The notes under the pieces are model-generated. The model did not search any database, was not told where the DNA came from, and was given only the letters and a program-made list of their open reading frames with translations. The position numbers and the translations under genes were made by a program. Shown here piece after piece: positions 15,041-62,463 of a stretch of 64,000 bases of DNA. Positions within the stretch are counted from its first letter, which is position 1, and each line of letters starts with the position of its first letter. Source of the stretch: Bacteroides caccae (GTDB taxonomy: Bacteria > Bacteroidota > Bacteroidia > Bacteroidales > Bacteroidaceae); the NCBI RefSeq assembly GCF_002222615.2, contig NZ_CP022412.2, forward strand, positions 2,542,001 through 2,606,000. The letters are read 5' to 3'.

Positions 15041-15095
15041 CATGATTATTTGGTAAAAAAGAGAGGTGGATACGATATAATCTTTTTGATTGTAC

Positions 15096-15103: not shown

Positions 15104-15133
15104 TATCTTATTATATGAGATAGTTACAAAAAT

Positions 15134-39287: not shown

Positions 39288-39292
39288 GAAAT

Positions 39293-40114
39293 ATGAATAG
39301 TAAAAATAGCAGATTAATCAATTCTTTGAGAAAATTGCTATTGGGGAACAATATACAAATTGAGATGGAACAAACTAAAGCTGTTTTCAGGAATAAGCCA
39401 TTTATTTTATTGAAAGGCATTATTCTACTTCTGATTTTCATATTGACGACCAGTTTGGTTCGTGCACAATACTCCTTGGGATCGACAGGACAATTAATGA
39501 TACCTACTGCCGAGATGCAGGAAACCGGTACGTTTATAGGAGGAGCAAACTACCTACCCGAGCAAGTTACCCCTTCTGTTTTCAGTTTTCCTACAATGAA
39601 TTATTTCGTGGATATGACACTGTTTTCTTTCATTGAATTTACTTATCGAATGACATTACTCAAAATGACAACGGCTACGGGAAGAACAGGTTATCACAAT
39701 CAAGACCGTTCCAATACGATTCGTATTCGTCCGTTAAAAGAAAGCCGTTATTTTCCGGCTGTTGTGATTGGGGGGGATGATCTTCTGACTGAAGGAAAAA
39801 CTCCATATTGGGGTGCCTACTATGGTGTGCTTACTAAAACAATCGGATTCCGTTCGGGACATCAACTGGCAATTACGGCGGGTTGGTATTTTCATCAGGG
39901 TGATAAGCCTGTATATAATAAAGGACCTTTCGGCGGAGTTCGTTATACTCCCTCTTTTTGTCGGGAATTGAAATTCATGGCGGAATATGATACGCATGGT
40001 TGGAACATTGGTGCTGCTATGCGCTTTTGGAAGCATCTATCCGTCAACGTGTTTACCCGCGAATTTACATGTGTGTCTGCCGGTTTACGGTATGAATGTA
40101 CATTAATACATTAA
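39293..40114 (+). CDS. YjbH-like outer-membrane protein, N-terminal half (phase-variable operon gene 1)
   Basis: 273 residues from ATG 39293; ATG 39365 gives a more typical signal peptide (MEQTKAVFRNKP then a long hydrophobic core ending LVRA|Q). The mature start YSLGSTGQLMIPTAEMQETG and the beta-rich body (FVDMTLFSFIEFTYRMTLL, TIRIRPLKESRYFPAVVIGG) resemble the first part of the YjbH outer-membrane proteins linked to exopolysaccharide. It ends with a barrel-like aromatic strand (VSAGLRYE). It is directly downstream of the invertible promoter. Its stop is adjacent to the next ATG. Confidence 0.7.
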   Translation: MNSKNSRLINSLRKLLLGNNIQIEMEQTKAVFRNKPFILLKGIILLLIFILTTSLVRAQYSLGSTGQLMIPTAEMQETGTFIGGANYLPEQVTPSVFSFPTMNYFVDMTLFSFIEFTYRMTLLKMTTATGRTGYHNQDRSNTIRIRPLKESRYFPAVVIGGDDLLTEGKTPYWGAYYGVLTKTIGFRSGHQLAITAGWYFHQGDKPVYNKGPFGGVRYTPSFCRELKFMAEYDTHGWNIGAAMRFWKHLSVNVFTREFTCVSAGLRYECTLIH

Positions 40115-43286: not shown

Positions 43287-44180
43287 ATGAGCATAACTAT
43301 TAAAAACCTCAATAAGATTTATCCAAATGGAAACCATGCATTGAAAGATGTCAATCTGGAGATTCCTACGGGGATGTTTGGCTTATTGGGTCCCAACGGT
43401 GCCGGCAAATCTACTTTAATGCGTATTCTGGTAGCTCTAATGGAGCCAACTTCCGGACAGGTTGAAATCTGTGGATACGATTTGATGAAACAACGGAAAG
43501 AAATTCGTGGTATTTTAGGATATCTCCCTCAGGACTTTCGTTTCTTTGCCAAATATAAAACGTATGAGTTTTTGGACTATGCAGCCCGTCTGTCGGGAAT
43601 GACTCAAAACAGGCAAAGAAAGCAGGCTGTGGATGAAATGCTCGAAAATGTAGGATTGTTTGATGTACGTGAGCGGTATGCTAACAAATTATCAGGAGGC
43701 ATGAAGCGTCGGTTGGGAATTGCGCAGGCATTGATACATCATCCTAAAGTAATTATTGTAGATGAACCTACTACCGGGCTTGACCCCGAAGAACGTATTC
43801 GTTTCCGTAACCTTCTTTCCGAAGTTAGTGAAAATGACGTCACTATTATTTTATCTACCCATATTGTAGGAGATATCTCCAGTACTTGTAACAATATGGC
43901 GTTGATGAACCGGGGGGAAGTTTCTTTCTATGGGTCTCCGCAAGATATGTTGAAGAAAGCCGAAGGCAAGGTGTGGAGGATCAGAGCCGGTGGCGATCAA
44001 TTGCATGAGATTGATAAAAAATATCCGGTCATATCTACTATTCCCTCAGGGACAGCTTGGGAGGTACAGGTGGTTGCCGATAAAGTAGAAGGATACGAAG
44101 CGGAGCCATTTCCTCCTAATCTTGAACACGCCTATGTATATTATATGGAGAATCAATTAAACCTTTGGACAAACGACTAA
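43287..44180 (+). CDS. ABC transporter ATP-binding protein (efflux operon gene 1)
   Basis: A 297-residue cytosolic nucleotide-binding subunit. Walker A is G35-PNGAGKS, the Q-loop region LGYLPQDFRFF, the signature LSGGMKRRLGIAQAL, Walker B VIIVDEPTTGLDPEERIR and the H-loop LSTHIVGD. The C-terminal 70 residues (KVWRIRAGGDQLHEIDKK) form an extra domain common in ABC-2 type exporters. It precedes its likely permease by 15 bp. It closely resembles the ATPase fused to the RND permease later in the same operon (both have TGMFGLLGPNGAGKSTLMR and GLDPxERIRFRNLL), so one probably arose by duplication. Confidence 0.93.
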   Translation: MSITIKNLNKIYPNGNHALKDVNLEIPTGMFGLLGPNGAGKSTLMRILVALMEPTSGQVEICGYDLMKQRKEIRGILGYLPQDFRFFAKYKTYEFLDYAARLSGMTQNRQRKQAVDEMLENVGLFDVRERYANKLSGGMKRRLGIAQALIHHPKVIIVDEPTTGLDPEERIRFRNLLSEVSENDVTIILSTHIVGDISSTCNNMALMNRGEVSFYGSPQDMLKKAEGKVWRIRAGGDQLHEIDKKYPVISTIPSGTAWEVQVVADKVEGYEAEPFPPNLEHAYVYYMENQLNLWTND

Positions 44181-44195: not shown

Positions 44196-47100
44196 ATGAC
44201 CTTTTTATCTAATATACAATCGGTAGCAAAGTATGAAAGCAAGTTATTAATAAGAAGTTGGTTCTTCCGGGTGTTTACAGTGCTCGCCATAGGTATCACT
44301 ACTCTTTTTAATTTTCTCCTATTTGTATCGGAGGATACTTACGGATTTTGGATTGCTATGTCCATTCCGTCGAATATCCCTTATCTAATTCTGCTATTGC
44401 TGAATACAGGACAGGCTGTCATTGCTATTTTTCTTGCCTCTGATTTTCTGAAAAGGGACAAGAAACTGGATACGTCGGAAGTCTTTTATGTCCGTCCGTT
44501 AAGTAATGCCGAGTACGTGATTGGTAAGATCTGGGGGAATCTGCGTGTTTTTCTGCTGCTCAATCTTATTATTATGGGCATTACAATGGCATTCAATCTG
44601 ACAGTGGGAGAAGTGGACTGGATAGCTTATTTATTATATTTTCTGCTGATTAGTGTACCTACGCTCGTTTTTATTATTGGCCTGTCTATCTTTCTGATGT
44701 TGGTGCTGAAGAATCAGGCACTCACTTTTGTTATTCTGTTGGGGTATATCGGATTGACTGTTTTTTATATTGAGGATAAGTTTTATTACCTTTTCGATTA
44801 TATGGCGTATAGTCTCCCATTAGTAAAATCTACTATTGTTGGATTTTCCAATTGGGAAGTAATTTTGAATCACCGGGCTATCTATTTTCTCGCCGGCCTG
44901 GCATTTGTCTTTTTCACTATCTCTCTATTCCGGCGTCTGCCTCACTCGTCGCGTAGCAATTATCCATGGGTCTTTCTTTCTGTGTGTACACTCTTGCTGA
45001 GTTTAGCTTGCGGATATTGGCATGTGCATTCCATTTTGTATCAGGGCGATATACGGGCTGCATATACACGTGTTAACAACCAATATGTCGCTACTCCGAA
45101 GCTGTTTATTCATCAATATGATTTTTCGGTAGAACAACGTCTTGATGACTTTCTATCCGAAGTAACCATGAGGGGGGTAGCTTTGGACTCGTCTGCCGTA
45201 TTTACGTTTTGCCTGAATCCGGGGCTGACCGTACGTTCCGTTGATTCGGATGGACAACCACTTAAATTCAAGCGTGACAAGCAAATCGTATTAGTGGATT
45301 TCGGTACGAATCTGGCAAAGGGAGACACTGCCTCAGTGACATTTAAGTATGATGGACAAATAGATAATTCGTTTTGTTATCTGGATATTCCTCCGGAAGT
45401 GTTACAGGCTTCTAAAAAGAAATTTCTGTTCAATATTGATAAACAATACTGTTTCCAGACAAAGGATTATTTATTGCTTACTCCCGAAACATATTGGTAT
45501 CCTCGTGCCGGAACTGGTTATAGTGATGAAAATCCGGACTGGCAACAAACTTATTTCAGCAATTACCATTTGAAAGTGAAGCCTCTAGCAGGGTTGGTTC
45601 CGCTTTCCCAAGGCGAAGGTAAGAGCGATGAACATGGGGTTTATACGTTTAAGGGAGATTTTCCGTCTCAAACAATATCACTGGCCATAGGAGATTATCA
45701 GCAGAAAAGTATATCTGCAGACAGCATCCTATATAGTATCTGGCATCTGAAAGGACATGACTTCTTTTCGGCAGCTTTGGATTCTATCCACGATACGATC
45801 CCTTCATTAATACGTAATGTTAAAGACCAACTGGCTCGAAACTATAAATTGGATTATCCTTTCAAACGGTTTTCGTTGATAGAAGTACCAATACAATTTG
45901 TGGGTTATGAACGTGCTTGGTCGCAAGCACAGGAAACCGTGCAACCGGAAATGGTCTTATTTCCGGAAAAAGGGGCATTGTTTGATGATATGGATATGAA
46001 GAAACAGGTTCAAAACCATATACGTTGGTCGAGATATGGAGACAGGAATGAAATCAGTTTGCAGGAAGCACAGATGCGTACGTTCAATAATTTTATCTGG
46101 AGATTTGCGCAAACGGAAGGAAATTATAATTTTTCATCCGGTAGCAGGGGAAAAGGTAATCTTTCGTCAGAGGCAAATCCTTATTTTCTTTTTCCACAAA
46201 TCTATAATTTCCGGTATAATATTTTTTCTTCGGAATGGCCTGTTGCCAACCGGGTGATTGAGTTGTATTTGCAAAAAAAATCAGAGAATGGAGGTTGGGA
46301 GCGTCAGATTAATGGTATTAGTAATAATGAAAAGGCTGTTCTGTTGCTGGAGAAGCGTACATTTAAAGAATTGCTGGTCGATATGGAACTGCGCAACTTG
46401 CAGAATAATATCGTCGGACAGGAAGCAAGCCGTCTTTTTGCCAGGGCAGAAATAAATATGGGCGTAGAAGCCTTTAGGGACTCATTATATTCATTGCTGA
46501 AACGTAATACTTTTTTGAATATAAAGTTTGAAAATATGCTCGATACATTGGGAGAGATAAGTCGGACAGATATTCGTTCATTGTTGGGAGAATGGGAAAA
46601 AACAACACCTCTTCCTTTTTACTCGTTAGGGGAACCAACATTGACTAAAATTACCAATAAGGGTGGAGAAGAATTTTTTGTATTGAAAATGCTGATAAGT
46701 AATAATTCGGATTATGATGGGATTATTCACATGGATATTCGTAAAGACGGTTGGTGGTATCAGCCTTTGGAAGACCCCAGAGCCAAAACAAAAATAGAGA
46801 TGCCTGCTCATACCAGTAAGGAATTTGTTTCGGTTTGGGAAGATCAGATCCGTAATGTTGAGATTAATACTATGGTTTCGGGGAATCTTCCGAATATAAT
46901 TAGTCAAGACATAAATAATGTCAAACAGGAACGAAACAAAATAGTCAAAGACAGTATTTATATATTGCCGGAATCTTCGTTCGATTTGCCGGGGGAAATT
47001 ATTGTGGATAATGAAGATTCTACTCTTTTTATTCTTTCCGCTCCTCCCATTGTGGGGCTCTTGCCTAAGTGGTTGGACGAAGTGGAGGAAACACCTTTTA

Positions 47101-47513
47101 AATATTCGGGTATATCCTGGTGGCGTCCGCCTTTACAATGGACGGCTACTACCAATGACAGATATTATGGAAAATATATTCGTTCGGCTTTTGTGATTAA
47201 AAGTGGGGACGGCAGCCAGACTGCTACATGGAAAGTACCTGTACCGGAAGTCGGTCAGTATGACTTGTATTATCATGTATTCAAGGATGATGAACTTCGT
47301 TGGAACAATAATCTTCAGGGGGAATATCATTTTAAAGTAAAGTATGGCAGTGAGGTAGAAGATGCCTATGTTAACCTGAGAAAAGCAAATGAGGGGTGGG
47401 AACAACTGGGTAGTTACTACTTTGACTCAGATACGGTCCGGGTGGTACTGACAGATGAATGTAAACTGCGGTCTGTAACAGCCGACGCAGTGAAAATAGT
47501 GAAACGATATTAA
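44196..47513 (+). CDS. ABC permease with peptidase-M1-like and golvesin-like periplasmic domains (efflux operon gene 2)
   Basis: 1105 residues. The N-terminal membrane part has about six or more helices up to residue 270 (ABC-2 permease type, opening FLSNIQSVAKYESKLLIRSW). A large extracytoplasmic region follows, which by overall pattern resembles M1-aminopeptidase-linked permeases of Bacteroidetes (RFSLIEVPIQFVGYERAW, VQPEMVLFPEKGALFDD). No HExxH zinc motif is present, so it is probably not a peptidase. The last 100 residues (about 1000-1105: GQYDLYYHVFKDDELRW, YHFKVKYG, WEQLGSYYF, TADAVKIVK) look like a golvesin C-terminal domain, also seen in the gene at 31007. It is the partner of the ATPase at 43287. 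Confidence 0.8.
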   Translation: MTFLSNIQSVAKYESKLLIRSWFFRVFTVLAIGITTLFNFLLFVSEDTYGFWIAMSIPSNIPYLILLLLNTGQAVIAIFLASDFLKRDKKLDTSEVFYVRPLSNAEYVIGKIWGNLRVFLLLNLIIMGITMAFNLTVGEVDWIAYLLYFLLISVPTLVFIIGLSIFLMLVLKNQALTFVILLGYIGLTVFYIEDKFYYLFDYMAYSLPLVKSTIVGFSNWEVILNHRAIYFLAGLAFVFFTISLFRRLPHSSRSNYPWVFLSVCTLLLSLACGYWHVHSILYQGDIRAAYTRVNNQYVATPKLFIHQYDFSVEQRLDDFLSEVTMRGVALDSSAVFTFCLNPGLTVRSVDSDGQPLKFKRDKQIVLVDFGTNLAKGDTASVTFKYDGQIDNSFCYLDIPPEVLQASKKKFLFNIDKQYCFQTKDYLLLTPETYWYPRAGTGYSDENPDWQQTYFSNYHLKVKPLAGLVPLSQGEGKSDEHGVYTFKGDFPSQTISLAIGDYQQKSISADSILYSIWHLKGHDFFSAALDSIHDTIPSLIRNVKDQLARNYKLDYPFKRFSLIEVPIQFVGYERAWSQAQETVQPEMVLFPEKGALFDDMDMKKQVQNHIRWSRYGDRNEISLQEAQMRTFNNFIWRFAQTEGNYNFSSGSRGKGNLSSEANPYFLFPQIYNFRYNIFSSEWPVANRVIELYLQKKSENGGWERQINGISNNEKAVLLLEKRTFKELLVDMELRNLQNNIVGQEASRLFARAEINMGVEAFRDSLYSLLKRNTFLNIKFENMLDTLGEISRTDIRSLLGEWEKTTPLPFYSLGEPTLTKITNKGGEEFFVLKMLISNNSDYDGIIHMDIRKDGWWYQPLEDPRAKTKIEMPAHTSKEFVSVWEDQIRNVEINTMVSGNLPNIISQDINNVKQERNKIVKDSIYILPESSFDLPGEIIVDNEDSTLFILSAPPIVGLLPKWLDEVEETPFKYSGISWWRPPLQWTATTNDRYYGKYIRSAFVIKSGDGSQTATWKVPVPEVGQYDLYYHVFKDDELRWNNNLQGEYHFKVKYGSEVEDAYVNLRKANEGWEQLGSYYFDSDTVRVVLTDECKLRSVTADAVKIVKRY

Positions 47514-47530: not shown

Positions 47531-49027
47531 ATGCAAATTGACTTACTACTATTAAAAAGAATGCTACTGGCAATTGTTGTTTTCATGGGAATTACATTAC
47601 CCTCGCAAGGGCAAATTCCCTTAACGATTGACAAGGCTATGGAAATTGCGCAGGAAAACAGTCCTTCTCTCCGCCGTTCCTATATGAATTTGGAAAGGTA
47701 TAAACAGAACCTGATTGCTCAGAAGGCTTCGTTGAAATCGCGGTTCTCGTTAAACCTGAATCCGTTAGATTATAACAAAAACAGGCGTTTCGATAACCGG
47801 CTGTCGCAATGGTATACTAATGAAACGCTCAACAGTAGTGGGACTTTTCAAATTGAGCAACCCATCTTATGGACGGACGGTACGATTTCGTTAATCAACA
47901 AGTTCGGTTGGCAAGACAATAATTCCATTTTGGAAGGGAATAAAACCAGCGACCGGGCATTCAGCAATGACCTCTATTTGCAATTGACTCAACCTATCTT
48001 CACTTACAACAAGCGGAAAATGGAATTGAAACAGATTGAATATGATTATGAAAATGCTGATATTAGTTATGCTCTGCAGCGGTTGAATACGGAAAAAAGT
48101 ATAACAGACCAATTTTATGCTGTTTATATGGCGCAAAGTAATTTGGAAATCAGCCGTGAGGAACTAATCAATGCCCAGCAAAGCTATGATATTATAAAAA
48201 ATAAGGTAGAAGCGGATTTAGCAGCCAAAGACGAACTTTTTCAGGCTGAGTTGAATCTAGCGACAGCTCGTTCGTCGGTAGACGAGAGTAAGGTGAGTTT
48301 GGAAAATGCGAAAGATAAGTTGAAACAAACACTTGGAATGAGATTGGATGAGGATATTTTAGTATTTGCCGAAGTTGATATTAAACCTATTCAAGTAGAT
48401 TTGGAACAAGCTATCACACATGGATTAGGCTCACGGTTGGAACTTCGTCAGCGTGAAATAGAAAGTAAAGAACTTGAGTTTGAAATGATTAAGACGAAAG
48501 CATTGAATGAGTTCAAAGGGGATATCTCTTTGTCATTCGGATTAATGGGAGATAACCGTCATTTGAATAAAATGTTTAATAATCCGACACAAAATCCACG
48601 TGTTTCTATCAGTTTTACTGTTCCTATATTCGATTGGGGAGAAAAGAGAGCACGAATCAAAGCACAAAAGGTTGCACAACAAATTAATGAACTTGAATTT
48701 CATGAAGAAAAGGTAGATATTGAACTGAATATCCGTCAGGTATGGCGTAGTCTTGAGAATCTCCGTACTCAGATCAAAATTGCCGAGCAGAATGTGCAAA
48801 ATGCTCAATTAACTTATGATCTGAACCAGACACGTTATCGGGAAGGCGATATTACCGGTATGGAAATGAGTCAGTTCCAGACACAACTTTCAAATAAGAA
48901 AATCACTTATACGCAAGCATTAATCAACTACAGAATAGAATTACTTAATCTTAAAATTCTTTCATTGTATGACTTCGACAAGAATATTCCTATTGTTCCG
49001 ATGAAAGATATAATCGATAAAAAATAA
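47531..49027 (+). CDS. TolC-family outer-membrane efflux channel (efflux operon gene 3)
   Basis: 498 residues with a signal peptide (about 1-27, ending LPSQG|Q). It has the TolC pattern of two OEP repeats: a start ITLPSQGQIPLTIDKAMEIAQENSPSLRR (abridged by its first helix), long helices with coiled heptads (EISREELINAQQSYDIIKNK), and the second repeat with SFTVPIFDWGEKRARIKAQK. It forms the outer-membrane and periplasmic duct of a tripartite pump. It begins 17 bp after the permease gene and 7 bp before the adaptor gene. Confidence 0.92.
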   Translation: MQIDLLLLKRMLLAIVVFMGITLPSQGQIPLTIDKAMEIAQENSPSLRRSYMNLERYKQNLIAQKASLKSRFSLNLNPLDYNKNRRFDNRLSQWYTNETLNSSGTFQIEQPILWTDGTISLINKFGWQDNNSILEGNKTSDRAFSNDLYLQLTQPIFTYNKRKMELKQIEYDYENADISYALQRLNTEKSITDQFYAVYMAQSNLEISREELINAQQSYDIIKNKVEADLAAKDELFQAELNLATARSSVDESKVSLENAKDKLKQTLGMRLDEDILVFAEVDIKPIQVDLEQAITHGLGSRLELRQREIESKELEFEMIKTKALNEFKGDISLSFGLMGDNRHLNKMFNNPTQNPRVSISFTVPIFDWGEKRARIKAQKVAQQINELEFHEEKVDIELNIRQVWRSLENLRTQIKIAEQNVQNAQLTYDLNQTRYREGDITGMEMSQFQTQLSNKKITYTQALINYRIELLNLKILSLYDFDKNIPIVPMKDIIDKK

Positions 49028-49034: not shown

Positions 49035-50096
49035 ATGAAACAGTATCACATTTTAATAGCATTTTCTTTATTAGCAACTATAGGCTTGACAAGCTGTGGT
49101 GACAGACCACAAAACGCACCCAATAACATTGCTACTCCGGTATCTGTTGTCGAACTGAAAAAAGGTTCGATCAGTAAACTGATAAATACAACAGGAACAG
49201 TACAGCCTACTTATGGGGTGTCTCTGAACTCTGAAATGAGCGGCTTTTATAAACTTCAAATTAATCCGAAGACAGGAAAAACTTTCAAAATGGGAGATAG
49301 GGTGAGTAAAGGTACGATAATTGTCCGGTTGGAAGACAAAGAATATGAAAACGGCATTGCTATCGACGCTAAAAAGCTCAGTCTCGAAATAGCCGAACAG
49401 GAGCAATCGAAACAAAAAGCGCTTTATGAAAAGGGAGGGGTGACGATGAGTGAGATGCGGAATACGGAAGTTAAGGTGACGAATGCCCGTTATGATTATG
49501 AAAACGCACAACTCAATTTGGAGAAAATGAAGGTAAAAGCTCCGTTTGATGGTGTGATTGTTGACCTGCCCCATTATACAACTGATATCAGGGTAGAGCA
49601 GGGTAAGCCGGTAGTAAGTCTAATGGCTTATGATAAAATGTATATGGATATCAATCTGCCGGAGAGCAGCATCCGCTATGTCAAGGAAGCACAACCGGTA
49701 TATATTACTCATTACACCATACCGGGTGATACTTTGAGAGGGAAAATCAGCGAATTATCTCCCGCAATCAGTTCGGAAACGCGTACCTATAAAGGAAAGG
49801 TTTTAGTTGATAACAATCAACTAAAATTGCGTCCGGGTATGTTTGCTAAAGCAGATATTGTGGTAGACAGAGCAGACAGCTCCATTATTATCCCCAAGGA
49901 CGTGATTCTGTCGAACCGTCGTCGCAAATATGTATATGTCGTTGAGAAGAATACCGCAAAGATACGTAATTTAGAAACAGGCTTAGAGGATGAATATAAC
50001 ATTGAAATCATATCCGGACTCAAAGTAAATGACAATCTGGTAGTGAAGGGGTTTGAAACATTGAAGGAAGATGCTAAAGTAAAAATTCAAAAGTAA
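49035..50096 (+). CDS. RND-type periplasmic adaptor lipoprotein (efflux operon gene 4)
   Basis: 353 residues with a lipoprotein signal (lipobox LTSC, Cys21). The membrane-fusion protein order is a biotinyl-lipoyl half (LNSEMSGFYKLQINPKTGKTF), a short helical hairpin (LEIAEQEQSKQKALYEKGGV), the second lipoyl half (VKAPFDGVIVDLPHY), and a beta-barrel with membrane-proximal domain (IIIPKDVILSNRRRKYVYVV). It couples the inner-membrane pumps to TolC. It sits between tolC and the first RND gene, as expected. Confidence 0.92.
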   Translation: MKQYHILIAFSLLATIGLTSCGDRPQNAPNNIATPVSVVELKKGSISKLINTTGTVQPTYGVSLNSEMSGFYKLQINPKTGKTFKMGDRVSKGTIIVRLEDKEYENGIAIDAKKLSLEIAEQEQSKQKALYEKGGVTMSEMRNTEVKVTNARYDYENAQLNLEKMKVKAPFDGVIVDLPHYTTDIRVEQGKPVVSLMAYDKMYMDINLPESSIRYVKEAQPVYITHYTIPGDTLRGKISELSPAISSETRTYKGKVLVDNNQLKLRPGMFAKADIVVDRADSSIIIPKDVILSNRRRKYVYVVEKNTAKIRNLETGLEDEYNIEIISGLKVNDNLVVKGFETLKEDAKVKIQK

Positions 50097-50144: not shown

Positions 50145-53100
50145 ATGAAGAATATAGTCAAATTTGCAGTAGGCAATCCGGTTACAATTTGTATGATTGT
50201 ATTTGCCCTCTTATTGTTGGGAAAGGTGTCATACGATCAGTTGAGTGTCGACTTATTGCCTGATCTGAATAATCCCCGCTTGTTTATCGAACTAAAGGTA
50301 GGAGAACGTCCTCCTGAAGAGATCGAAAAACAATTTGTGAAAAACATGGAATCCATGGCTATTCGGCAGAGTGACGTTACACAGGTGTCTTCGGTGATTA
50401 AAGCGGGAACGGCACGGATTACCGTAGAATATACTTGGACAAAGGATATGGATGAAGCTTTTCTCGATTTGCAGAAAGCTATGAATCCGTTTGCCCAGAA
50501 TAAGGAGATTACGGAACTAAAAATAACGCAACACGACGCGAATCTGTCGCCAGTTGTCCTGGTGGGGATGTCTCATCAGAATATTACGGATATGGCGGAA
50601 TTGCGAAGGATTGCGGAAAGTTATATCCGTAACGAGCTGATTCGCTTGGAAGGTGTTGCCGAAGTGACTCTTTCGGGAGAGGAAGTGACTACCCTTACCG
50701 TTCAGACTGATCCTTATAAATTAAATGCTTTCCAATTAAAGATAGAGGATATCGCTTCGCGTATTGAGTCTAATAATCAGAGCATATCCGGAGGACGGGT
50801 AAGTGAATTGGGATTGCAGTATTTAGTGAAAAGTTCGAGTCTGTTTTCCACAGAAGCCGATTTTGAAAATTTGATCGTCGGATATAAACCGGTACAGCAG
50901 GAGACTTCAGGGAATAGTTCTTCTGAAACTGTGACAGATCTCAACAAGGCTCCCGTCTTTTTGAAAGAAGTAGCTACTGTGCAGTTTGTGAATGCACGTC
51001 CCGAAAACATTGTACGTATTAATGGAAAACGTAGTATCGGTTTGTCTATTTATAAGGAAATGCGTTTCAATACGGTGAAGGTGGTAGACGAAGTAACTAG
51101 TCGGTTGGCAGTGATAGAAGATGCTTTGCCCGGCTATCATTTTCAGGTAATCTCCAATCAGGGGACTTTTATAAAAAGTGCTATCGGTGAAGTGAAAAGC
51201 AGTGCTATATTGGGTATTGTCCTTGCTGTCATTGTATTGTTTGTATTCCTTCGTCGAATGGGAACAACGTTGATTGTCAGTCTTTCTATTCCAATCTCTA
51301 TTGTAGCAACTTTCAATTTGATGTTTTTCAATGGGCTTACGCTGAATATTATGACTTTGGGAGGGTTGGCTCTCGGAGCGGGTATGCTGGTAGATAATGC
51401 CATTGTAGTTATAGAAAGTATTTTCCGGAATCAGGAAAAAGGAGTGAGTGTTAAGGAGGCAGTGGTCACCGGAACTGCGGAGGTGGCAAATGCGGTTATT
51501 GCTTCTACTTTGACGACTATTGTGGTATTTCTTCCGATTGTTTATCTTCATGGAGCTTCGGGTGAACTGTTTAAAGATCAGGCTTGGACAGTTACTTTCT
51601 CACTTGTATCTTCCTTGTTTGTTGCTATCCTAGTGATTCCGATGTTATATACTCAACTTTCCGGTAAGAAAGTAAAAATGGAAGAAGTGAAATCAATCCG
51701 TATTACTAGATATAGCAAGATACTTCGCAAGTTGGTTCGACATCGTTGGTGGGTAATTGGTATGGCAGTGTTATTACTTGTAGTTACAGGTTTGCTGACT
51801 CCGTTCATTGGTACGGAGTTTATGCCGAGGGCGGAAAGTAAGGCTTTTACTGCTGTTGTGAAAATGCCTGAAGGTACGCAAATGGAACGTACTGCTGCGG
51901 CTGTGGGTAATCTCGAAGATTTATTATATACTATTGTCGGAGGCGATTCTCTGTGTACGATATATAGTCATGTCGGAGAGGGAAGCGGTTCGGAAAATGC
52001 CATATTTGAAGGAGAAAATACGGCGATGATGAAAATTATTCTTTTTCCGGAGTGTATTCTTTCTCCAGAAAATGTAATTGCCCGGTTCCTTGAAGAAGCG
52101 AAGAATCCCGATGGTCTGGAATTATCTATCCGTCAGGATGAAAATTCTTTGAGTTCTCTGTTGGGTAGTGAAGGAGCTCCTATTGTAGTGGAAGTGAAAG
52201 GAGAGGAGTTGGACGAAATAGCGAAGATTACCGGAGAAGTAAAGGAAAGAATGCAGGAAGTGGATGGGGTGTATGACGTTGTAACTTCTATTGAAGACGG
52301 TGCTCCGGAAGTAGTGATTTCAATAGACCGTACCATAGCCGGGATCAATAATCTGAGTGTTGCTACAGTGATTGAACAGTTGAAACAACAGTTGAGTGGT
52401 AAGGAAGCCGGTAAAATGGAGTATCGCGGTGAGATGCGTGATATCGTGATTAAAGTACCGGATATATCTTTAGGAGCTCTCGGATCACTTGTTATCAGAA
52501 GTGGTACACAAGAGTTTTTGTTGGACGAGATCGCTAGTATTACTCATGGGCAGGCACCTAAAGAGATTCTACGTCGCAATCAGAGCCGTATAGGTAAAAT
52601 AATGGCTAATATGGACACTGGCAAATCACTTGATAAAGTGGCGGCAGAAGTGCGTTTGGCTGTTAAAGATATTGATTTGCCTGCTAATTATAGTATCACA
52701 GTGACCGGAGAAGAAGAAAAACGGCAGGAGTCTATGCATAGCTTATTGTTTGCTTTATTGCTTTCTGTTGTACTTGTTTATATGGTCATGGCTTCACAGT
52801 TTGAATCGTTGTTACATCCTTTTACGATTCTGCTGACTATTCCGCTGGCTGTGGTGGGTGCTATCTTGCTTTTCTTCATTACTGGAACCACGATTAATAT
52901 GATGGGAGTTATCGGTATCGTGATGTTGGGAGGTATTGCCGTTAATAACTCTATTATTCTGGTAGACCGTATCAACCAACTTAGCCAGGCAGGAATGGAG
53001 TTGACTGACGCCATTGTAGAAGCAGGACAGCAACGTATCCGTCCTATCATAATGACTACGTTGACTACGATTCTGGCTATGCTTCCAATGACATTCGGAT

Positions 53101-53255
53101 TTGGTGAAGGTGCTTCCCTTCGTTCGCCAATGGCTATTGCTGTGATTGGAGGACTGATAACTTCTACTTTGATGAGTTTGATGGTTATCCCATGTGTATA
53201 TTATGTCCTTGAAAAGATAAAAAGGCGTATAAATCACCGAACTAAAAAAAGCTGA
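50145..53255 (+). CDS. RND efflux permease (efflux operon gene 5)
   Basis: A 1036-residue, 12-helix RND protein of the AcrB/HAE type. The opening MKNIVKFAVGNPVTICMIVF and the repeated large periplasmic loops are typical. The proton-relay site in TM4 reads GMLVD417-N418-AIVVIES, so the second Asp of AcrB (Asp408) is Asn. In TM10, GGIAVNNSIILVD replaces the AcrB Lys940 with Asn. The same substitutions occur in SwrC-like RND pumps. It is 2 bp before the fused RND-ABC gene, and the pair may form a heteromeric trimer as MdtB and MdtC do. Confidence 0.93.
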   Translation: MKNIVKFAVGNPVTICMIVFALLLLGKVSYDQLSVDLLPDLNNPRLFIELKVGERPPEEIEKQFVKNMESMAIRQSDVTQVSSVIKAGTARITVEYTWTKDMDEAFLDLQKAMNPFAQNKEITELKITQHDANLSPVVLVGMSHQNITDMAELRRIAESYIRNELIRLEGVAEVTLSGEEVTTLTVQTDPYKLNAFQLKIEDIASRIESNNQSISGGRVSELGLQYLVKSSSLFSTEADFENLIVGYKPVQQETSGNSSSETVTDLNKAPVFLKEVATVQFVNARPENIVRINGKRSIGLSIYKEMRFNTVKVVDEVTSRLAVIEDALPGYHFQVISNQGTFIKSAIGEVKSSAILGIVLAVIVLFVFLRRMGTTLIVSLSIPISIVATFNLMFFNGLTLNIMTLGGLALGAGMLVDNAIVVIESIFRNQEKGVSVKEAVVTGTAEVANAVIASTLTTIVVFLPIVYLHGASGELFKDQAWTVTFSLVSSLFVAILVIPMLYTQLSGKKVKMEEVKSIRITRYSKILRKLVRHRWWVIGMAVLLLVVTGLLTPFIGTEFMPRAESKAFTAVVKMPEGTQMERTAAAVGNLEDLLYTIVGGDSLCTIYSHVGEGSGSENAIFEGENTAMMKIILFPECILSPENVIARFLEEAKNPDGLELSIRQDENSLSSLLGSEGAPIVVEVKGEELDEIAKITGEVKERMQEVDGVYDVVTSIEDGAPEVVISIDRTIAGINNLSVATVIEQLKQQLSGKEAGKMEYRGEMRDIVIKVPDISLGALGSLVIRSGTQEFLLDEIASITHGQAPKEILRRNQSRIGKIMANMDTGKSLDKVAAEVRLAVKDIDLPANYSITVTGEEEKRQESMHSLLFALLLSVVLVYMVMASQFESLLHPFTILLTIPLAVVGAILLFFITGTTINMMGVIGIVMLGGIAVNNSIILVDRINQLSQAGMELTDAIVEAGQQRIRPIIMTTLTTILAMLPMTFGFGEGASLRSPMAIAVIGGLITSTLMSLMVIPCVYYVLEKIKRRINHRTKKS

Positions 53256-53257: not shown

Positions 53258-56200
53258 ATGAACTTTTTACTAAATAGGAGAATTACGATCTGTATGCTGT
53301 TTATTGCACTTAGTCTTTTGGGCTATGTGTCCTACAAACAGCTTCCGGTAGAGTTGCTGCCTAATGCAGAGCTTCCGGTATTGTTTATCCAAGTGTCGTC
53401 GCAGCAGGATATGGACCCTTCGTATGTGGAGTCGGAAGTGATAATTCCGCTTGAAGGAGCTGTCAGTACGATAGGAGGAGTAGACAAACTGCAATCTTAT
53501 ATAGACAGGAGGCAATCGAACATACAAATTGATTTTAAGAAGAATGTCAATTTCAAGATGACTGCTCTTAAGTTGCAGGAAAAGGTGAATGAAGTGGCAG
53601 CATCTTTTCCCAGTGGTTTTACTGTGCAGGTACAGAAAGTTGATATTGCACAGATGAACAATAACTTTATGGTACTTCAGGTACGGGGTTCGGGAGGGAC
53701 AGACCGTGTCAGGAACTTAGTGGAGGATAATATTCTTTCCGATTTGGAGAACATAGATGGTGTGGCATCTGTCAATATATATGGCGGACGGCAAAAAGCG
53801 ATTGAGATACGTCTCCATTCGGAGGTGTGCAAAGCGTTGAACCTTACGGCGTCAAAGATAAGTAATCTGCTTTCACAGAATACGCAGGAGAAAACGTTTG
53901 TCGGTTTTGCCAATGAGCCGGATAGTAAGATTTTTGTTCACGTAAATGCGATGTATACGAAAGTATCTGACCTGGAAAATATTGTGGTGGCTCCCGGACC
54001 TGTCTTGTTGAAAGATGTGGCAACCGTATTCTTTGATCTGAAAGATGAAACCACTTATAGTCGTGTAAATGGGAAAGAGGCTGTTTCTGTGGTATTGATA
54101 AATGATTCGCAGGCAAATCTTATAGAGCTTTCCCACCGTGTTTCTGATGCGATTGACAAACTGAATGAAAAAATAGTTCCGCTTGATCTGGAAATAGTCG
54201 TTCAGGAGAATAAGGCTGAAACGATGGAGAATAACATCAATCAAATCATTAACCTGGCATTGGTCGGTGGATTGTTGGCTGTTTTCATTCTCTGGCTTTT
54301 TTTGAAAAATATGCGGCTGGTGTTCTTTATCGCACTTTCAATTCCGATCTCAGTTTATACGGCCTTCAATTTCTTCTATGCTTCCGGCATTACTATCAAT
54401 AGCCTTACATTAGTGGGAATGGCACTTGCCATTGGGATGCTACTGGATAATAGTGTCGTAGTGCTGGAGAATATTTATCGTTTATCCGGAAGCGGCTACA
54501 CACCCGAGCGCTCAGTTACTCAGGGCACTAAAGAGGTGTGGCGCTCTATTGTAGCAGCTACGTTGACTACTGTCACTGTTTTCCTGCCGTTTGTCTTTTC
54601 AGATAATTTCCTGATTAAACTGATAGGGCATCATATCGGGGTGTCTATTATATCTACGCTGATTATTTCCTTGTTTGTGGCTTTGCTTTTCATTCCTATG
54701 GTCACTTATGTTATTCTGAAAAAGAAGAAAGGAAGAAGTGTCGTTTATGAGAAGGTGTCGATTATTCAACGTCCGATACAAGTGTATCTGGTTTTACTGA
54801 AGACGTGTATGCGTAATCCGGGAGTCACTATATTCGGAGCGGTGATTTTACTTTTTGCTACTCTGATATTATCACTGACCTTGAATGTGCAGCAGATGAA
54901 AGAAGTGGATTCGGATCGGTTTAATATAAGTGTTGTAATGCCTACCGGAAGTACCCTTGAGAATACGGACAAGATAGTCAAAGCGCTGGAAGAACGTCTG
55001 AAGGATTTCCCAGAAAAGAAAGATTTGATCTGCCGTGTCCGGGAGAAAGAAGCAACTATTACGCTCGTTTTGCAAAAAGATTATCAAAAGATAGGTAAAC
55101 GGAAAATTACGGATATCAAATCGGATGTGCAATCCAAAGTCTCGAACATTAATGGGGCGGAAGTCTATGTCTCTGATGCTATGGGAGGCGGACAGGAAAA
55201 TTCGGTATTGAGTAGTCTTGGAGGCTTTATGCGTTTACTGGGTATTGGTGATAATAATGAACGAGTGGTTGTCAGAGGTTCTGATTTCGAAATGATGCAA
55301 ATGGTAGCTGAGGAAATCCGCTACCTACTGGATGAACAGGAATTTGTGCAACATACTCATGTATCGTATACTCCTCGTCAGCCAGAGATAAATCTGAACT
55401 TTGACCCGATTCTGCTGACTACTTATGATATCAATCGTGCTAATATAACTTCGGGATTAACGGCACTCAATAACGAGTTTTCTTCTGAAGTGACTTTTAA
55501 AGTGGGAGAAGATAATTATGACATTATCATTCGCGATGAAATTCTGAAAAAAAGTACAGAGACGGAAGAAGAAGCGGAGGAGAAGGTTCAAAAAGAAAAG
55601 ACAGTTGATGATTTGCGTGCTGTTCGGATAGAAAATGTAAAGGGTGGAATGCACAATCTGGAAGATATAGCCTCTATTAATTATGGTCGCGGACGTTCGC
55701 GGATCATACGTGTCAATCAGGATAAACAACTTGAAGTTTATTATAATTTCTCAAGAGATGTGCAGTCCTCAAAGGAATTATTGGGAAGTTATCGTTCTGA
55801 TATAGACCAATTGATTGCCGGTTATAATCTACCTTCAGGCGTTGCCTTGCAAGTATTCCATGAGGAGGATCAGTTTGGAGATTTCAAATTTCTTATTCTG
55901 GCAGCCTTCATTTTGATTTTTATGATACTTGCTTCTGTTTTTGAGTCTGTAGTAACTCCTTTTGTATTACTTTTTACTATTCCGCTTGCTGCTATCGGCT
56001 CTTTGCTGGCGTTATTGCTTTCGAGCAATAGCCTGATGAATGCAAATACGCTGACGGGGTTCTTGATTCTGCTGGGAGTAGTCGTAAATAACGGAATTAT
56101 CCTTATAGACTATGCTAATATTTTACGTAAAAGAGGATATCGCCGGAATCGGGCATTAATGACTGCCGGAATGTCACGTATCCGTCCGATTTTGATAACT

Positions 56201-57973
56201 TCTATCACAACGATCGCCGCTATGTTGCCGTTGGCCATGGGAGATACGGAATATGCCGGAGCCATTGGGGCGCCTTTTGCTATTACAGTGATTGGTGGGC
56301 TTCTTTTCTCTGCCTTATTGACGTTGATTTTGATTCCTACTGTCTGCATGGGATTGGAAAATGTGCTTTGGTGGTATCGTTCTTTGTCTCGTAAAATGTG
56401 GATTTTCCATTTTGTTCTTTTTGTAGTTGGCGTTGTCAGTATCTGGCTATATGCTGAAGGAATACTTTGGCAGTCTATCTATTTAGTAGCACTGATTGCG
56501 GGTATACCAGGACTGACTTATTTTACACAGACTAGTCTTAGAAGAGCTAAATCGAAAGTCATAGATCCGAATGAAGAAATACACATATCTGTCCGGAATC
56601 TGGTTAAGATATATGATTGGCCGGGACGTATCAGTCGTCAATGGCATAGTGGTCTGCAAATACGGAAAAGGCTGGGAATGAGTCGTGAATATCATTCTCT
56701 AAAAGACTTCGTCAATGTGTTGTGGCAATTCGGTATGTTAGCGTTCGGTGTTTATTTTACTTATTTTTTTATTCAAAATAGACTTTGGATATTTCTGTTT
56801 TCGTTTGCTATTTATGCATCGGCTTTGTACTTGTGGAGAAAAATACGTTCTTATTTATATTATCGTTACGAAAATAGTAAGGGAGTAAAGGCAGTAAACC
56901 GTGTGATATTCTGGGGACTTCCTCCTGTTATCTTGTTCGAACTGTTCAAGCGACTGGATAATAACGGTTTGGTGGTAATGATTGGGCTGTTGTGGTTTGC
57001 GGGTATTGCTATCTACGTTACCTCACAGTATCTATATGAACATAATGTAAATATAGAACGTGTTACCGGACGATTTGCCGGACTTCGCCGCTCTTACTTC
57101 CGTATGGTAAAGAGTGTTCCTTTGATTGGAAAACAACGTAAACCTTTTAAAGCATTGCGTGGAGTTTCGTTTGAGATTCAGACAGGTATGTTCGGACTCC
57201 TGGGACCGAACGGAGCCGGAAAGTCAACTTTGATGCGCGTGATTTGTGGCATATTCGAGCAGAGTTATGGCAGTATCTGGATTAATGGTATGGATACCCG
57301 TATCTATAGGGAAGAATTGCAAAGCTTGATAGGATTCCTTCCGCAGGAATTTGGCACTTACGAAAATATGACATCTTGGGAGTTTCTTGATTATCAGGCT
57401 ATACTGAAAGGAATAATAGATGAGGATTTGCGTAAGGAACGGTTAGAGTATGTTTTGAATGCGGTACATATGTATGAGCGGAAAGATGAAAATATCGGTT
57501 CTTTCTCGGGAGGTATGAAACAGCGGATCGGCATTGCATTGATTTTGCTCCATTTGCCACGTATTCTGGTAGTAGATGAGCCGACAGCAGGACTCGACCC
57601 TCGTGAGCGTATCCGTTTTCGTAATCTGTTGGTGGAATTGAGTAAAGATCGTGTGGTCATTTTTTCTACTCATATCATTGAAGATATATCCAGTTCCTGT
57701 AATCAGGTTGTGGTAATAAACAAGGGTGAACTGAAATATTTCGGTGATCCGGCGGACATGGTGGAAATGGCTAATGGAAAGGTATGGCAGTTTAATATAG
57801 ATAAAACGGAGTTTGAAAAGGCATTGGATAAATCTTTGGTCATACATCATATCCAGCAAGGGGATACTATCCGTGTTCGTTATCTTTCTGTTGAGCAACC
57901 ATACGAAGGAGCCGAAGAAGTTGAGGCCAATCTGGAAGATGCTTATCTCTGCCTATTGAAGAATATGAATTAA
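53258..57973 (+). CDS. RND efflux permease fused to an ABC ATPase domain (efflux operon gene 6)
   Basis: 1571 residues in one uninterrupted frame. Residues 1 to about 1030 form a complete RND permease (TM4 site GMLLD397-N398-SVVVLEN; TM10 GVVVNNGIILID). Two extra helices follow at about 1047-1067 and 1070-1090. At 1110 an ABC first strand (ISVRNLVKIYDW) appears, then about 175 residues with four predicted helices (about 1155-1262). The ATPase resumes at K1298 (KALRGVSFEIQTG), with Walker A 1316-1323 (GPNGAGKS), signature SGGMKQR from 1417 and Walker B with Asp1440. All ATPase motifs are intact. This fuses a proton-driven pump to an ATPase, and the ATPase itself is interrupted by a membrane insert. 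The function is inferred as export. Confidence 0.9.
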   Translation: MNFLLNRRITICMLFIALSLLGYVSYKQLPVELLPNAELPVLFIQVSSQQDMDPSYVESEVIIPLEGAVSTIGGVDKLQSYIDRRQSNIQIDFKKNVNFKMTALKLQEKVNEVAASFPSGFTVQVQKVDIAQMNNNFMVLQVRGSGGTDRVRNLVEDNILSDLENIDGVASVNIYGGRQKAIEIRLHSEVCKALNLTASKISNLLSQNTQEKTFVGFANEPDSKIFVHVNAMYTKVSDLENIVVAPGPVLLKDVATVFFDLKDETTYSRVNGKEAVSVVLINDSQANLIELSHRVSDAIDKLNEKIVPLDLEIVVQENKAETMENNINQIINLALVGGLLAVFILWLFLKNMRLVFFIALSIPISVYTAFNFFYASGITINSLTLVGMALAIGMLLDNSVVVLENIYRLSGSGYTPERSVTQGTKEVWRSIVAATLTTVTVFLPFVFSDNFLIKLIGHHIGVSIISTLIISLFVALLFIPMVTYVILKKKKGRSVVYEKVSIIQRPIQVYLVLLKTCMRNPGVTIFGAVILLFATLILSLTLNVQQMKEVDSDRFNISVVMPTGSTLENTDKIVKALEERLKDFPEKKDLICRVREKEATITLVLQKDYQKIGKRKITDIKSDVQSKVSNINGAEVYVSDAMGGGQENSVLSSLGGFMRLLGIGDNNERVVVRGSDFEMMQMVAEEIRYLLDEQEFVQHTHVSYTPRQPEINLNFDPILLTTYDINRANITSGLTALNNEFSSEVTFKVGEDNYDIIIRDEILKKSTETEEEAEEKVQKEKTVDDLRAVRIENVKGGMHNLEDIASINYGRGRSRIIRVNQDKQLEVYYNFSRDVQSSKELLGSYRSDIDQLIAGYNLPSGVALQVFHEEDQFGDFKFLILAAFILIFMILASVFESVVTPFVLLFTIPLAAIGSLLALLLSSNSLMNANTLTGFLILLGVVVNNGIILIDYANILRKRGYRRNRALMTAGMSRIRPILITSITTIAAMLPLAMGDTEYAGAIGAPFAITVIGGLLFSALLTLILIPTVCMGLENVLWWYRSLSRKMWIFHFVLFVVGVVSIWLYAEGILWQSIYLVALIAGIPGLTYFTQTSLRRAKSKVIDPNEEIHISVRNLVKIYDWPGRISRQWHSGLQIRKRLGMSREYHSLKDFVNVLWQFGMLAFGVYFTYFFIQNRLWIFLFSFAIYASALYLWRKIRSYLYYRYENSKGVKAVNRVIFWGLPPVILFELFKRLDNNGLVVMIGLLWFAGIAIYVTSQYLYEHNVNIERVTGRFAGLRRSYFRMVKSVPLIGKQRKPFKALRGVSFEIQTGMFGLLGPNGAGKSTLMRVICGIFEQSYGSIWINGMDTRIYREELQSLIGFLPQEFGTYENMTSWEFLDYQAILKGIIDEDLRKERLEYVLNAVHMYERKDENIGSFSGGMKQRIGIALILLHLPRILVVDEPTAGLDPRERIRFRNLLVELSKDRVVIFSTHIIEDISSSCNQVVVINKGELKYFGDPADMVEMANGKVWQFNIDKTEFEKALDKSLVIHHIQQGDTIRVRYLSVEQPYEGAEEVEANLEDAYLCLLKNMN

Positions 57974-57987: not shown

Positions 57988-58701
57988 ATGACATTTAATC
58001 AATTAATAAAGCTGCTGCCTAAGGTGGTAAAATATAATTTGAAGATTATTTTTGCCGGAAAGTTCTTTTGGTTTCTGTTAGCGGCATTTGGATTCTTTGC
58101 CTTTTTTATGTTTCAGAGTGCGTGGAACCGGGCAGAAATTAATGAAGGGCTTATCTATAATATACTCATGTTCCCATGTTTATTGCTGATATTCTACCCG
58201 GCTGTCTTCGGCATTCAAAATGACGAAGACAGCCGGATATTGGAAATACTTTTTGGTATTCCTGACTATCGGTATAAAGTATGGGGAGTACGGTTACTCA
58301 TGATTTACGTGGTTATTTTTGCTATTCTAATCGTCTTTTCGTACATCGCTATCTTATTGCTGTATCCAATCAATCCTTTTGAGATGTCTTTGCAGTTGAT
58401 GTTTCCGGTTCTTTTTTTTGGTAATTTGACTTTTATGTTTTCTACGATTACCCGGAGTGGAAACGGAACGGCTGTACTTATGATTATCATTGGCATTGTA
58501 CTGATGTTTTTCAGTAATATGAATAGCATAGAACGTTCATTTTGGAATATTTTGCTGAATCCCTTCCGTGTGCCTGATAATTTTCATCCGATGATATGGG
58601 AAGGGATTCTTATCAAAAATCGTATATTTCTTTTCTCCTCCAGTCTGATCTGGATGATGATCGGTCTGCTGAATTTACAGAAGCGGGAAAAATTTGTATA
58701 G
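57988..58701 (+). CDS. ABC-2-type permease (efflux operon gene 7)
   Basis: 237 residues with about six membrane helices: FWFLLAAFGFFAFFMF, ILMFPCLLLIFYPAVFG, LLMIYVVIFAILIVFSYIAI, LQLMFPVLFFGNLTFMF, GTAVLMIIIGIVLMFFS, and the final FLFSSSLIWMMIGLLNL. The charged loop NDEDSRILEILFGIPDYRYKV after helix 2 is typical of ABC-2 permeases, where it couples to the ATPase. It begins 14 bp after the RND-ABC fusion, so the fused ATPase domain is its probable partner. It is the last gene of the operon and converges with the patatin gene (29-bp gap). Confidence 0.85.
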   Translation: MTFNQLIKLLPKVVKYNLKIIFAGKFFWFLLAAFGFFAFFMFQSAWNRAEINEGLIYNILMFPCLLLIFYPAVFGIQNDEDSRILEILFGIPDYRYKVWGVRLLMIYVVIFAILIVFSYIAILLLYPINPFEMSLQLMFPVLFFGNLTFMFSTITRSGNGTAVLMIIIGIVLMFFSNMNSIERSFWNILLNPFRVPDNFHPMIWEGILIKNRIFLFSSSLIWMMIGLLNLQKREKFV

Positions 58702-58730: not shown

Positions 58731-60950
58731 TCAGAAATAATATCCCAGATTCACAAAGCAGCTTCCTTTATCAGTCTGATTGGAATATCCCAATGATATT
58801 TCCAGAGGACCGAAAACGCTATCCATTCCATAACCTGCGCTGATGCCGAACAATTGTTTGCCTTTCAGTATTTCGAAGAAGTGACTGTCCGTCAAACCGT
58901 AGTTGCCTGTCAGGGTGAGGTAATGAATACTTCCCATACGTTGCCTGAACTTCAGAGAAGTAATGATAATAGAATTTTCCATTAATTCCATGTTTGTTAC
59001 GCCGGCAAAAGGCAACTGTTGTGGAATATAAAAACCGTATACTTCACCACCGATAGCATTTTTCAGGGGATAAGGAATTCCTTTCCCTATCAGGACACGC
59101 CCATAGATCGACGGAATGATAGAAAAACGGCGGGTGGCAGGAATCACACTTGCCCACGAAGCACTCAGTGCGGAAAATGGGGCCTGTTCATTGTATTGCG
59201 CCATATTATCGGTATAGAGTGAGTAGGCGGCTTTGAAATCACTTCCTTTGGAGGGGAAATATCCTTTATCGTATGTGTTATAGTGCACTTGTGCAAAATA
59301 GCTAAGGAAGTGTTCTGATTCTACATCCAAGCCGATAAATTCCGGCTTCTTAAATAAGAAGTCTTTGTATTTATAATATTCGAAACGGAATCCGAGACCA
59401 AAACGGAAATTCTTATACCATACATCCGAGAAGCCAAATTCAGCTAAATGATATTTGTAAGTAGTGTTATAGGCGCGTTCTCCTTCTTCATATATGTTGA
59501 TGTCATTATACTGAAACATATACGAAAAATTGAAGTTGCGCTGTTGCATAGGCTCTAATGTATAGTCAATGCGCGCCGCATACTGTTTCCCTAATCGCCC
59601 GGTAAGAGATAGTCGGGAAGGAATATGAGTTTTGAGGTCTGCCGTTCCATTGATTAATAAAGAGGCTATTTCTTCCGAATCGAAACGGATCCCCAGATTA
59701 ATTCTTTTTTCATACTTTGCTTGCAGTAGGAAATTGAGGTGATAACCTTCGGGAGTGTCCGTCAACGTATAGCTGGCACTGGAATAAGATTGGCTTCCTC
59801 TTAATTGATATAATGCCTGTTCTATCTGTTGGGTGGTAATATTACTATTTTCTTTCAGGTTGCATTTTTTCATTAGCCATTTCTTGTCGTCAGCTTCTAC
59901 ACCGGAGAATGATATGTCTGTCACATAAATTGTACGTACATTGGAGAGGGAAGAATACGGACCATGTCGTTTGGGAACATAATTATCGGATATTCCTATC
60001 TTCTTTTTCAAAGCGAGTAAGGAATTCCATTGTGCTTTAGCTGCTTCTTCTCCTCTTCGCATTAAAGTGTCAATAGCGGCCGGAGTAAAACTAGCCGAAG
60101 AATAACCGTCTACGTTTACACGAATGTAAGTATCGGTAAGGTCTACATTCTTTTCATGATTGGATTGGCAGGTAATATCTACGATTTGCCCTAAGATATC
60201 AGGAGCACTGTTCAGCTTATCCGCTTTTTTCAAGGCGTTTTGTACATCCACTCCGATGATAACATCAGCTCCCATAGCTTTTACAACATCTGCCGGATAG
60301 TTATTTACAATTCCACCGTCCACCAATACCATACTGTCTTGTCGTACCGGTGTAAATACACCTGGGATAGCCATACTGGCCCGCATGGCAGTTGACAGGA
60401 TCCCGTTGTGGAATATAATTTGTTCTCCATTGACAACATTTGCTGCTACACAAGCGAAAGGGATGGGGAGTTTATCAAAGTTGATAGAATCATGATAGCC
60501 CATAGTCAAGTCTGAAAATAGATTGGCAAGATTTTGCCCTTTGATAATTCCGCCCGAAGAAGCCGCATCTTTGGGACTTTTGGTGAAAGGTATGGAGACA
60601 ATGAACTTTTCCGACCGTTCACGGTCGGTCAATGACATGGCACTTCGTTTGATACGGTCGCTTAACAGAAACGTCCAGTTTTGTTTTCGAACCATACTGT
60701 CCAATTGCTCGGGAGTATAACCAATAGCGTAGAGTCCTCCTACAATGGCTCCCATACTAGTTCCGGCTATGTAATCGATAGGAATACCCGCTTCTTCGAT
60801 CACTTTTAATGCTTTGATATGCGCCATTCCTTTGGCACCGCCGCCACTCAAAACTACACCTACCTTTTTGCGTTGCTCCTGAGAATATAAGGAAAAAGGC
60901 AATAGTAGGCACATTGATAAAACTAATGTTGAGAAGATTTGTTTTTTCAT
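58731..60950 (-). CDS. Patatin-like phospholipase with outer-membrane barrel (PlpD-like)
   Basis: 739 residues. The signal peptide ends about residue 24. The patatin domain at about 28-320 has the oxyanion loop SGGGAKGMAHIK, the nucleophile Ser65 in AGTSMGAI and the catalytic Asp in LVDGGIVNNYP. A POTRA-like segment follows at about 330-410 (TDISFSGVEADDKKWLMK), then a BamA/TamA-type beta-barrel to the C-terminus, ending LGYSNQTDKGSCFVNLGYYF. It resembles type Vd autotransporters, and the lipase domain is probably exposed or released across the outer membrane. Transcribed alone. Confidence 0.92.
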   Translation of the reverse strand: MKKQIFSTLVLSMCLLLPFSLYSQEQRKKVGVVLSGGGAKGMAHIKALKVIEEAGIPIDYIAGTSMGAIVGGLYAIGYTPEQLDSMVRKQNWTFLLSDRIKRSAMSLTDRERSEKFIVSIPFTKSPKDAASSGGIIKGQNLANLFSDLTMGYHDSINFDKLPIPFACVAANVVNGEQIIFHNGILSTAMRASMAIPGVFTPVRQDSMVLVDGGIVNNYPADVVKAMGADVIIGVDVQNALKKADKLNSAPDILGQIVDITCQSNHEKNVDLTDTYIRVNVDGYSSASFTPAAIDTLMRRGEEAAKAQWNSLLALKKKIGISDNYVPKRHGPYSSLSNVRTIYVTDISFSGVEADDKKWLMKKCNLKENSNITTQQIEQALYQLRGSQSYSSASYTLTDTPEGYHLNFLLQAKYEKRINLGIRFDSEEIASLLINGTADLKTHIPSRLSLTGRLGKQYAARIDYTLEPMQQRNFNFSYMFQYNDINIYEEGERAYNTTYKYHLAEFGFSDVWYKNFRFGLGFRFEYYKYKDFLFKKPEFIGLDVESEHFLSYFAQVHYNTYDKGYFPSKGSDFKAAYSLYTDNMAQYNEQAPFSALSASWASVIPATRRFSIIPSIYGRVLIGKGIPYPLKNAIGGEVYGFYIPQQLPFAGVTNMELMENSIIITSLKFRQRMGSIHYLTLTGNYGLTDSHFFEILKGKQLFGISAGYGMDSVFGPLEISLGYSNQTDKGSCFVNLGYYF

Positions 60951-62460: not shown

Positions 62461-62463
62461 GAG

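Follow-up and report, generated by a model that had tools for sequence, protein, structure and literature searches.

How can one polypeptide carry both an RND permease and an ABC ATPase, and what would such a protein do? The question is raised by a gene at positions 53258..57973 (+ strand) of the 64,000-nucleotide stretch of Bacteroides caccae DNA analyzed here (the window), which an earlier note had read as a permease and an ATPase in one frame. To our knowledge, these two classes of export motor are usually thought to cooperate through the shared periplasm only. We favor a reading, to which we assign a probability of about 0.58, in which the fusion gene and its six neighbors specify a single export machine that spans the envelope and draws on two power sources.

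A single frame encodes an RND permease and an ABC ATPase

The frame comprises 1571 codons without an internal stop. Pfam assigns ACR_tran to residues 2–1029 (53261..56344, +; E = 6e-157, 524.5 bits against a curated cut-off of 28) and ABC_tran to residues 1300–1444 (E = 4e-26, far above the cut-off), which bears out the fusion described in the earlier note. The main part of the ATPase (residues 1297–1571; 57146..57970, +), defined by Pfam, motifs, the predicted model and structural alignment, contains the Walker A motif GPNGAGKS (residues 1316–1323; 57203..57226, +), the ABC signature SGGMK (residues 1417–1421; 57506..57520, +) and the Walker B Asp1440 (57575..57577, +). These motifs, and the strands starting at residues 1110 and 1298, lie exactly where they had been placed earlier. 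The protein scores below the curated cut-off of all 25 best NCBIfam models (of 193 matched); the multidrug RND subfamilies reach at best 452.7 bits against 1250, and the GldA model TIGR03522 177.2 bits against 402.6. The source genome, a single 4.57-Mb contig, contains one full-length match to the entire fusion protein.

Both ACR_tran (at E 1e-10) and ABC_tran were found in all 31 fusions scanned by Pfam, a subset of the 52 full-length ones that includes the protein from the source genome. Residues 1038–1305 were matched in 40 of 295 genomes of the same order (source included), under 22 family labels; 32 of these matches lie in frames of 1515–1640 aa and eight in shorter ones (seven cut by a contig end). 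The fusion was also found in two further lineages. Since it is conserved in relatives, chance or artefact is excluded, and the alternative that a sequencing or assembly error had joined two genes, in favor of which no point was found, is refuted.

The ATPase is split by a membrane insert

The first strand of the ATPase, with the A-loop tyrosine (ISVRNLVKIY, residues 1110–1119; 56585..56614, +; followed by an aspartate), is not adjacent in sequence to the second (KALRGVSF, from residue 1298), unlike in the usual ABC ATPase. The distance from this tyrosine to Walker A is 130–246 residues in all 52 fusions, compared to 22 residues in 28 of the 31 measurable orthologues (32 in total) of abc1, the free-standing ATPase of the same operon. 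In a strand-ranking comparison, the 12-mer at residues 1109–1120 ranks first in 52 of 52 fusions, and the A-loop Y1119 is kept in 51 of 51 distinct fusions.

An AlphaFold2 model of the insert and ATPase (pLDDT 84) forms the first segment as a strand with a local pLDDT of about 89. In this model and in structural alignment, the strand packs with its A-loop aromatic on the ATPase sheet. Among the matches listed, 50 of 50 solved structures align with the fused ATPase from model residue 5–11 onward, a range that takes in the split strand. The structure prediction called for in the earlier note therefore places the 1110 strand with the ATPase, and the contrary outcome, an unrelated strand, was not borne out.

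The intervening segment contains four long predicted helices at about residues 1148–1261 (56699..57040, +), in agreement with the four membrane helices proposed before. By a crude count, four hydropathy peaks are present in the inserts of 37 of the 52 fusions and three or five in 13; the two with one and two peaks have a short insert. The insert is shortened in L068 and L069. In L070 (~14700–15200) and L053, extra low-complexity stretches follow the first strand, ahead of the first insert helix.

Two further membrane helices, which were absent from the earlier reading, are predicted by AlphaFold2 between the RND part and the 1110 strand (residues ~1045–1098; 56390..56551, +), with a local pLDDT mostly of 70–87 that falls to 48 at the end. 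They come from a first model (residues 1040–1571, 17 rows) that was poor overall (mean pLDDT 64.9, pTM 0.40, one stretch below 50 running from residue 1288 into Walker A) and was therefore used for these two helices alone. Taken together, the sequences and predicted models support an ATPase that is split by a membrane insert within a real single protein, and suggest that a membrane domain may be inserted after the first strand of an ABC ATPase without loss of the fold.

Catalytic and proton relay residues

The fused ATPase has a Walker A, Q-loop, signature, Walker B, catalytic glutamate and H-loop, and K1322, Q1363, S1417, D1440, E1441 and H1472 are kept in all 51 distinct fusions. A motif-by-motif check of 47 fusions found serine at residue 1323 in 40 and threonine in seven. 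The key catalytic residues of abc1 are likewise invariant (32/32), so that the two ATPases, judged by their residues, could form an ABC heterodimer with two working sites.

On the RND side, D397 of the fusion is conserved in 51 of 51 sequences, and R974 and T981 in 47 of 47; the equivalent residues of rnd1, the RND permease without an ATPase, are D417, R964 and T971 (49/49). We take the TM4 aspartate and the TM11 arginine and threonine of both subunits to correspond to the proton relay of AcrB. The AcrB-type TM10 lysine appears to be absent from both subunits: asparagine is found at N944 in 51 of 51 fusions and at N934 in 49 of 49 rnd1 proteins, presumably the position of AcrB Lys940. The relay therefore differs from that of AcrB. 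The second TM4 aspartate position is also asparagine, in 41 of 47 fusions and 49 of 49 rnd1 proteins. The asparagines at these two positions count against a proton-driven RND part; from the aspartate, arginine and threonine kept in both subunits, we infer a pump that is probably still driven by protons.

These residues bear on a different reading, in which the RND subunit itself is the target of the fused ATPase, whose ATP cycle would drive or gate the RND protomer in place of protons or in addition to them. The two extra helices and the insert would provide a direct mechanical path through a covalent link, and the asparagine at the lysine position of both RND subunits sets the relay apart from that of AcrB; against this, the aspartate, arginine and threonine are invariant, and perm2, the short membrane protein gene after almost every fusion, would not be needed by an ATPase that served the RND subunit only. 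We regard this reading as unlikely.

A conserved seven-gene operon

The fusion gene is the sixth of seven genes in the order abc1-perm1-OMF-MFP-rnd1-fusion-perm2, all head to tail on the + strand with gaps of 2–48 bases. abc1 (43287..44180) encodes a 297-aa ABC ATPase (Pfam ABC_tran 19–163), and perm1 (44196..47513) a 1105-aa ABC-2-like permease with a large extra domain that ends in Golvesin_C (residues 981–1102). They are followed by a TolC-like outer-membrane factor (47531..49027; Pfam OEP, E = 1e-44), a periplasmic adaptor or membrane fusion protein (49035..50096; Pfam HlyD_D23 and HlyD_3) and rnd1 (50145..53255; ACR_tran 4–1022). perm2 (57988..58701) encodes a membrane protein of 237 aa.

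perm1 matches ABC2_membrane_2 below the curated cut-off (E = 0.0006); its likeness to Peptidase_M1 is sub-threshold (E = 0.079), with an HExxH motif in one of 34 sequences, and comparison with PDB sequences returned nothing at E up to 1. Weak matches to ABC2_membrane_3 were found in five of 40 perm2 orthologues (best E = 1.1e-4) and none in the perm2 of the source genome; by these matches, perm2 may be an ABC-2-type permease half. The profiles of perm2 and of the membrane part of perm1 show no significant mutual match (hhalign probability 2%). The weak likeness of perm2 to ABC-2 permeases and the lack of a match between the two profiles both count against a two-engine machine.

All five upstream genes are present at 31 of 53 loci; a further 21 are cut short by the end of the locus or contig, which leaves L018 as the sole true exception. 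perm2 follows the fusion at 51 of 53 loci, 47 found by script and four (L048, L062, L013 and L015) added from coordinates; the overlap in L048 exceeds the script limit, and perm2 of L062 lies ~870 bases downstream. The remaining two are L055, which has no room for it, and L018, which has no perm2 there. In the draw of genomes from the phylum, perm1 (E up to 1e-20) occurs in the same six genomes as the fusion, of 390, with up to six candidates per genome scored for the insert profile and up to two for perm1.

In a 56-tip tree, the fused ATPases group with abc1 in a single clade (support 1.0), within which the 16 fused ATPases (0.90) and the 12 abc1 proteins (1.0) are each monophyletic. As outgroups, 20 viral-contig ATPases and eight from the source genome were used, which leaves room for a nearer relative elsewhere. 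Since abc1 and the fused ATPase are sister paralogues, their sequences suggest that they form a heterodimer. Neither this paralogy nor the conservation of the operon was part of the earlier reading. The near-constant set of seven genes suggests a two-engine pump across the cell envelope.

Some ABC ATPases, of the FtsE type, act without transport, and FtsE is among the structural neighbors of the fused ATPase. The ATPase might accordingly regulate the RND complex, or help to assemble it as a chaperone, instead of powering transport, but we give this little credence: two sister ATPases and two permease-like proteins occur in the same operon, for which a transporter is the simpler reading.

Among the neighbor genes listed, no constant regulator was found by eye beside the operon. 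A scan for promoter-like sites (56 against 44.8 expected) and terminator-like sites (6 against 10.4 expected) was uninformative.

Distribution of the fusion

A scan of a species collection with exact peptide patterns returned 20 loci, of which 18 are relatives of the fusion gene, from Bacteroides, Tannerella, Proteiniphilum, Parabacteroides, Rikenellaceae, Prevotellaceae and others; L023 and L024 hold distant ATPases only. The fusions in this collection occur solely in records named Bacteroidales or its members, and four relatives with 88–90% identity are named Bacteroides species. Within the genus, eight of 119 genomes match. In the phylum draw, the insert profile matches seven of 395 genomes, with four true matches outside the order. 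The match in G362 was rejected as chance (52 of 271 positions, internal stops), and the surrounding 19 kb contain no operon matches. Given the counts for order, phylum and genus, the gene appears to be old or often transferred, patchy in distribution and fixed as a fusion.

In the corresponding draw from the class (up to six candidates scored per genome), all ATPases above 510 bits, in five of 385 genomes, are fused, and no unfused ATPase was found that scores like the fused ones; the next best, at 303 bits, lie in stand-alone frames. At ten loci with the best stand-alone ATPases (one locus of only 3.8 kb), no RND, adaptor or channel neighbor was found; two of them have a weak perm1-like neighbor (23 and 35 bits).

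Several loci depart from the common arrangement. In two Bacteroides metagenome assemblies (L013 and L015), operon genes including the fusion are broken into several frames, as is perm2 of L015, which may reflect decay or assembly error. In L071, a 418-aa frame just 5' of abc1 (1–1254) matches perm1 with 97 bits, in this relative alone. In the metagenome-assembled genome G801 (L018, L098, L101 and L102), the fusion stands alone and perm2 stands alone on another contig, while abc1 and perm1 share a second contig and perm1 and the outer-membrane factor a third; the two perm1 copies lie near contig ends. In G801, the rnd1 matches found do not exceed 31% identity. Either the system is dispersed in this genome, or the assembly is mixed or broken.

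The dispersed genes of G801, and the lack of a closer rnd1, count against a single machine. The dispersal fits a reading in which the fusion is no more than an anchor, the ATPase and perm2 forming a separate ABC transporter that gains co-localization or equal dosage from the RND part without handover or coupling: fusion and perm2 both persist in this genome, and the link to the ATPase contains stretches with a pLDDT below 50 (residues 1121–1125 and 1289–1294 of the predicted model). Such independence is opposed by the co-occurrence of perm1 with the fusion in each of the six genomes from the phylum and by the fixed order with the adaptor, the channel and a second RND gene, and we consider it improbable, slightly more so than an ATPase that drives the RND subunit.

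A putative two-engine export machine

In the favored reading of one machine with two power sources, we infer the pairing of subunits, their stoichiometry, the direction of transport and the handover of substrate. The RND part would be a proton-driven hetero-oligomer of rnd1 and the fusion, linked by the adaptor to the outer-membrane channel. The ABC part would be a heterodimeric ABC-2-type exporter composed of abc1 and the fused ATPase with perm1 and perm2 as permease halves. The C-terminus of known RND pumps is cytoplasmic. From this terminus, the two extra helices would take the chain across the membrane and back, so that the first ATPase strand lies on the cytoplasmic face, and the four insert helices would return the chain to the cytoplasm for the rest of the ATPase. 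The insert could thereby hold the ATPase close to the membrane and next to the pump, where it would serve perm2. ATP hydrolysis would carry a substrate, taken up from the cytoplasm or the inner leaflet, across to the periplasmic side; the perm1 domains may receive it in the periplasm, and the RND-adaptor-channel part would then expel it.

Of the two functions considered in the earlier note, tethering of the ATPase that serves the permease at 57988 thus fits better than direct coupling of ATP hydrolysis to the RND pump, because perm2 follows 51 of 53 fusions and both RND subunits keep the aspartate, arginine and threonine.

A more specific form of this machine, which we put forward tentatively, would place one polypeptide in both a proton-driven RND trimer (two rnd1, one fusion) and a docked ATP-driven ABC heterodimer (abc1, fused ATPase, perm1, perm2). 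Were the RND part to have the 2:1 composition of an MdtBC-like heterotrimer, each trimer would contain a single fusion, in keeping with the single fused ATPase of each ABC heterodimer. The ABC motor would then carry the substrate across the inner membrane and the RND motor across the outer one, and docking of the split strand, hence ATPase activity, would depend on correct assembly with the pump. If true, the fusion would physically connect the two main classes of bacterial export motor, and the idea of a relay could be tested directly on one purified complex.

Relationship to known systems

MdtB and MdtC are not known to carry an ATPase. Pumps of the MdtABC type resemble the present system in having two tandem RND genes with an adaptor; here the second RND subunit has an ATPase, and the operon adds two permease-like genes and a second ATPase. 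MdtBC is reported to be a B2C complex (PMC4338810).

The fused ATPase itself resembles those of the GldA/DrrA/ABCA/ABCG exporters. GldA and DrrA are its best-scoring ABC models, ABCA3 and ABCA1 its best ABC matches in the PDB by sequence among the matches listed, and its fold is like that of TM0544 (1vpl), with ABCG ATPases ranked lower. It differs from all of these in the split of the first strand by a membrane insert and in its position behind a whole RND permease. In MacAB-TolC, an ABC transporter works with an adaptor and an outer-membrane channel, as proposed here, whereas the present operon combines the adaptor and channel with RND genes; at E 0.001, none of the fusion, perm1 and perm2 shows a MacB-type Pfam domain.

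Each half is known. We found no description of the combination, of the insert-split ATPase or of the fixed seven-gene set among the literature matches listed from open-licence papers, which is weak evidence of absence for an RND-ABC fusion. The excerpted text of PMC8277102 holds nothing on such a fusion, the one paper matched by wording for it concerns phage shock proteins, and the text of PMC12694919 mentions an ABC-type operon of Bacteroides uniformis, BACUNI_01926-01932, with seven locus numbers.

Neighboring genes in the window

Upstream of the operon, two adjacent genes (39257–41338, +) match positions 3–127 and 274–601 of YjbH, an exopolysaccharide family, and look like one protein split in two. 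Downstream, a second adaptor gene is followed by another RND permease that leaves the window (61225–64000, +). Between the latter and perm2 lies a gene for a patatin-like phospholipase fused to an Omp85-type barrel (58731–60950, −). No such phospholipase-like neighbor was seen among the more distant loci listed; a protein with a similar start adjoins perm2 in five Bacteroides relatives (L006–L009 and L021).
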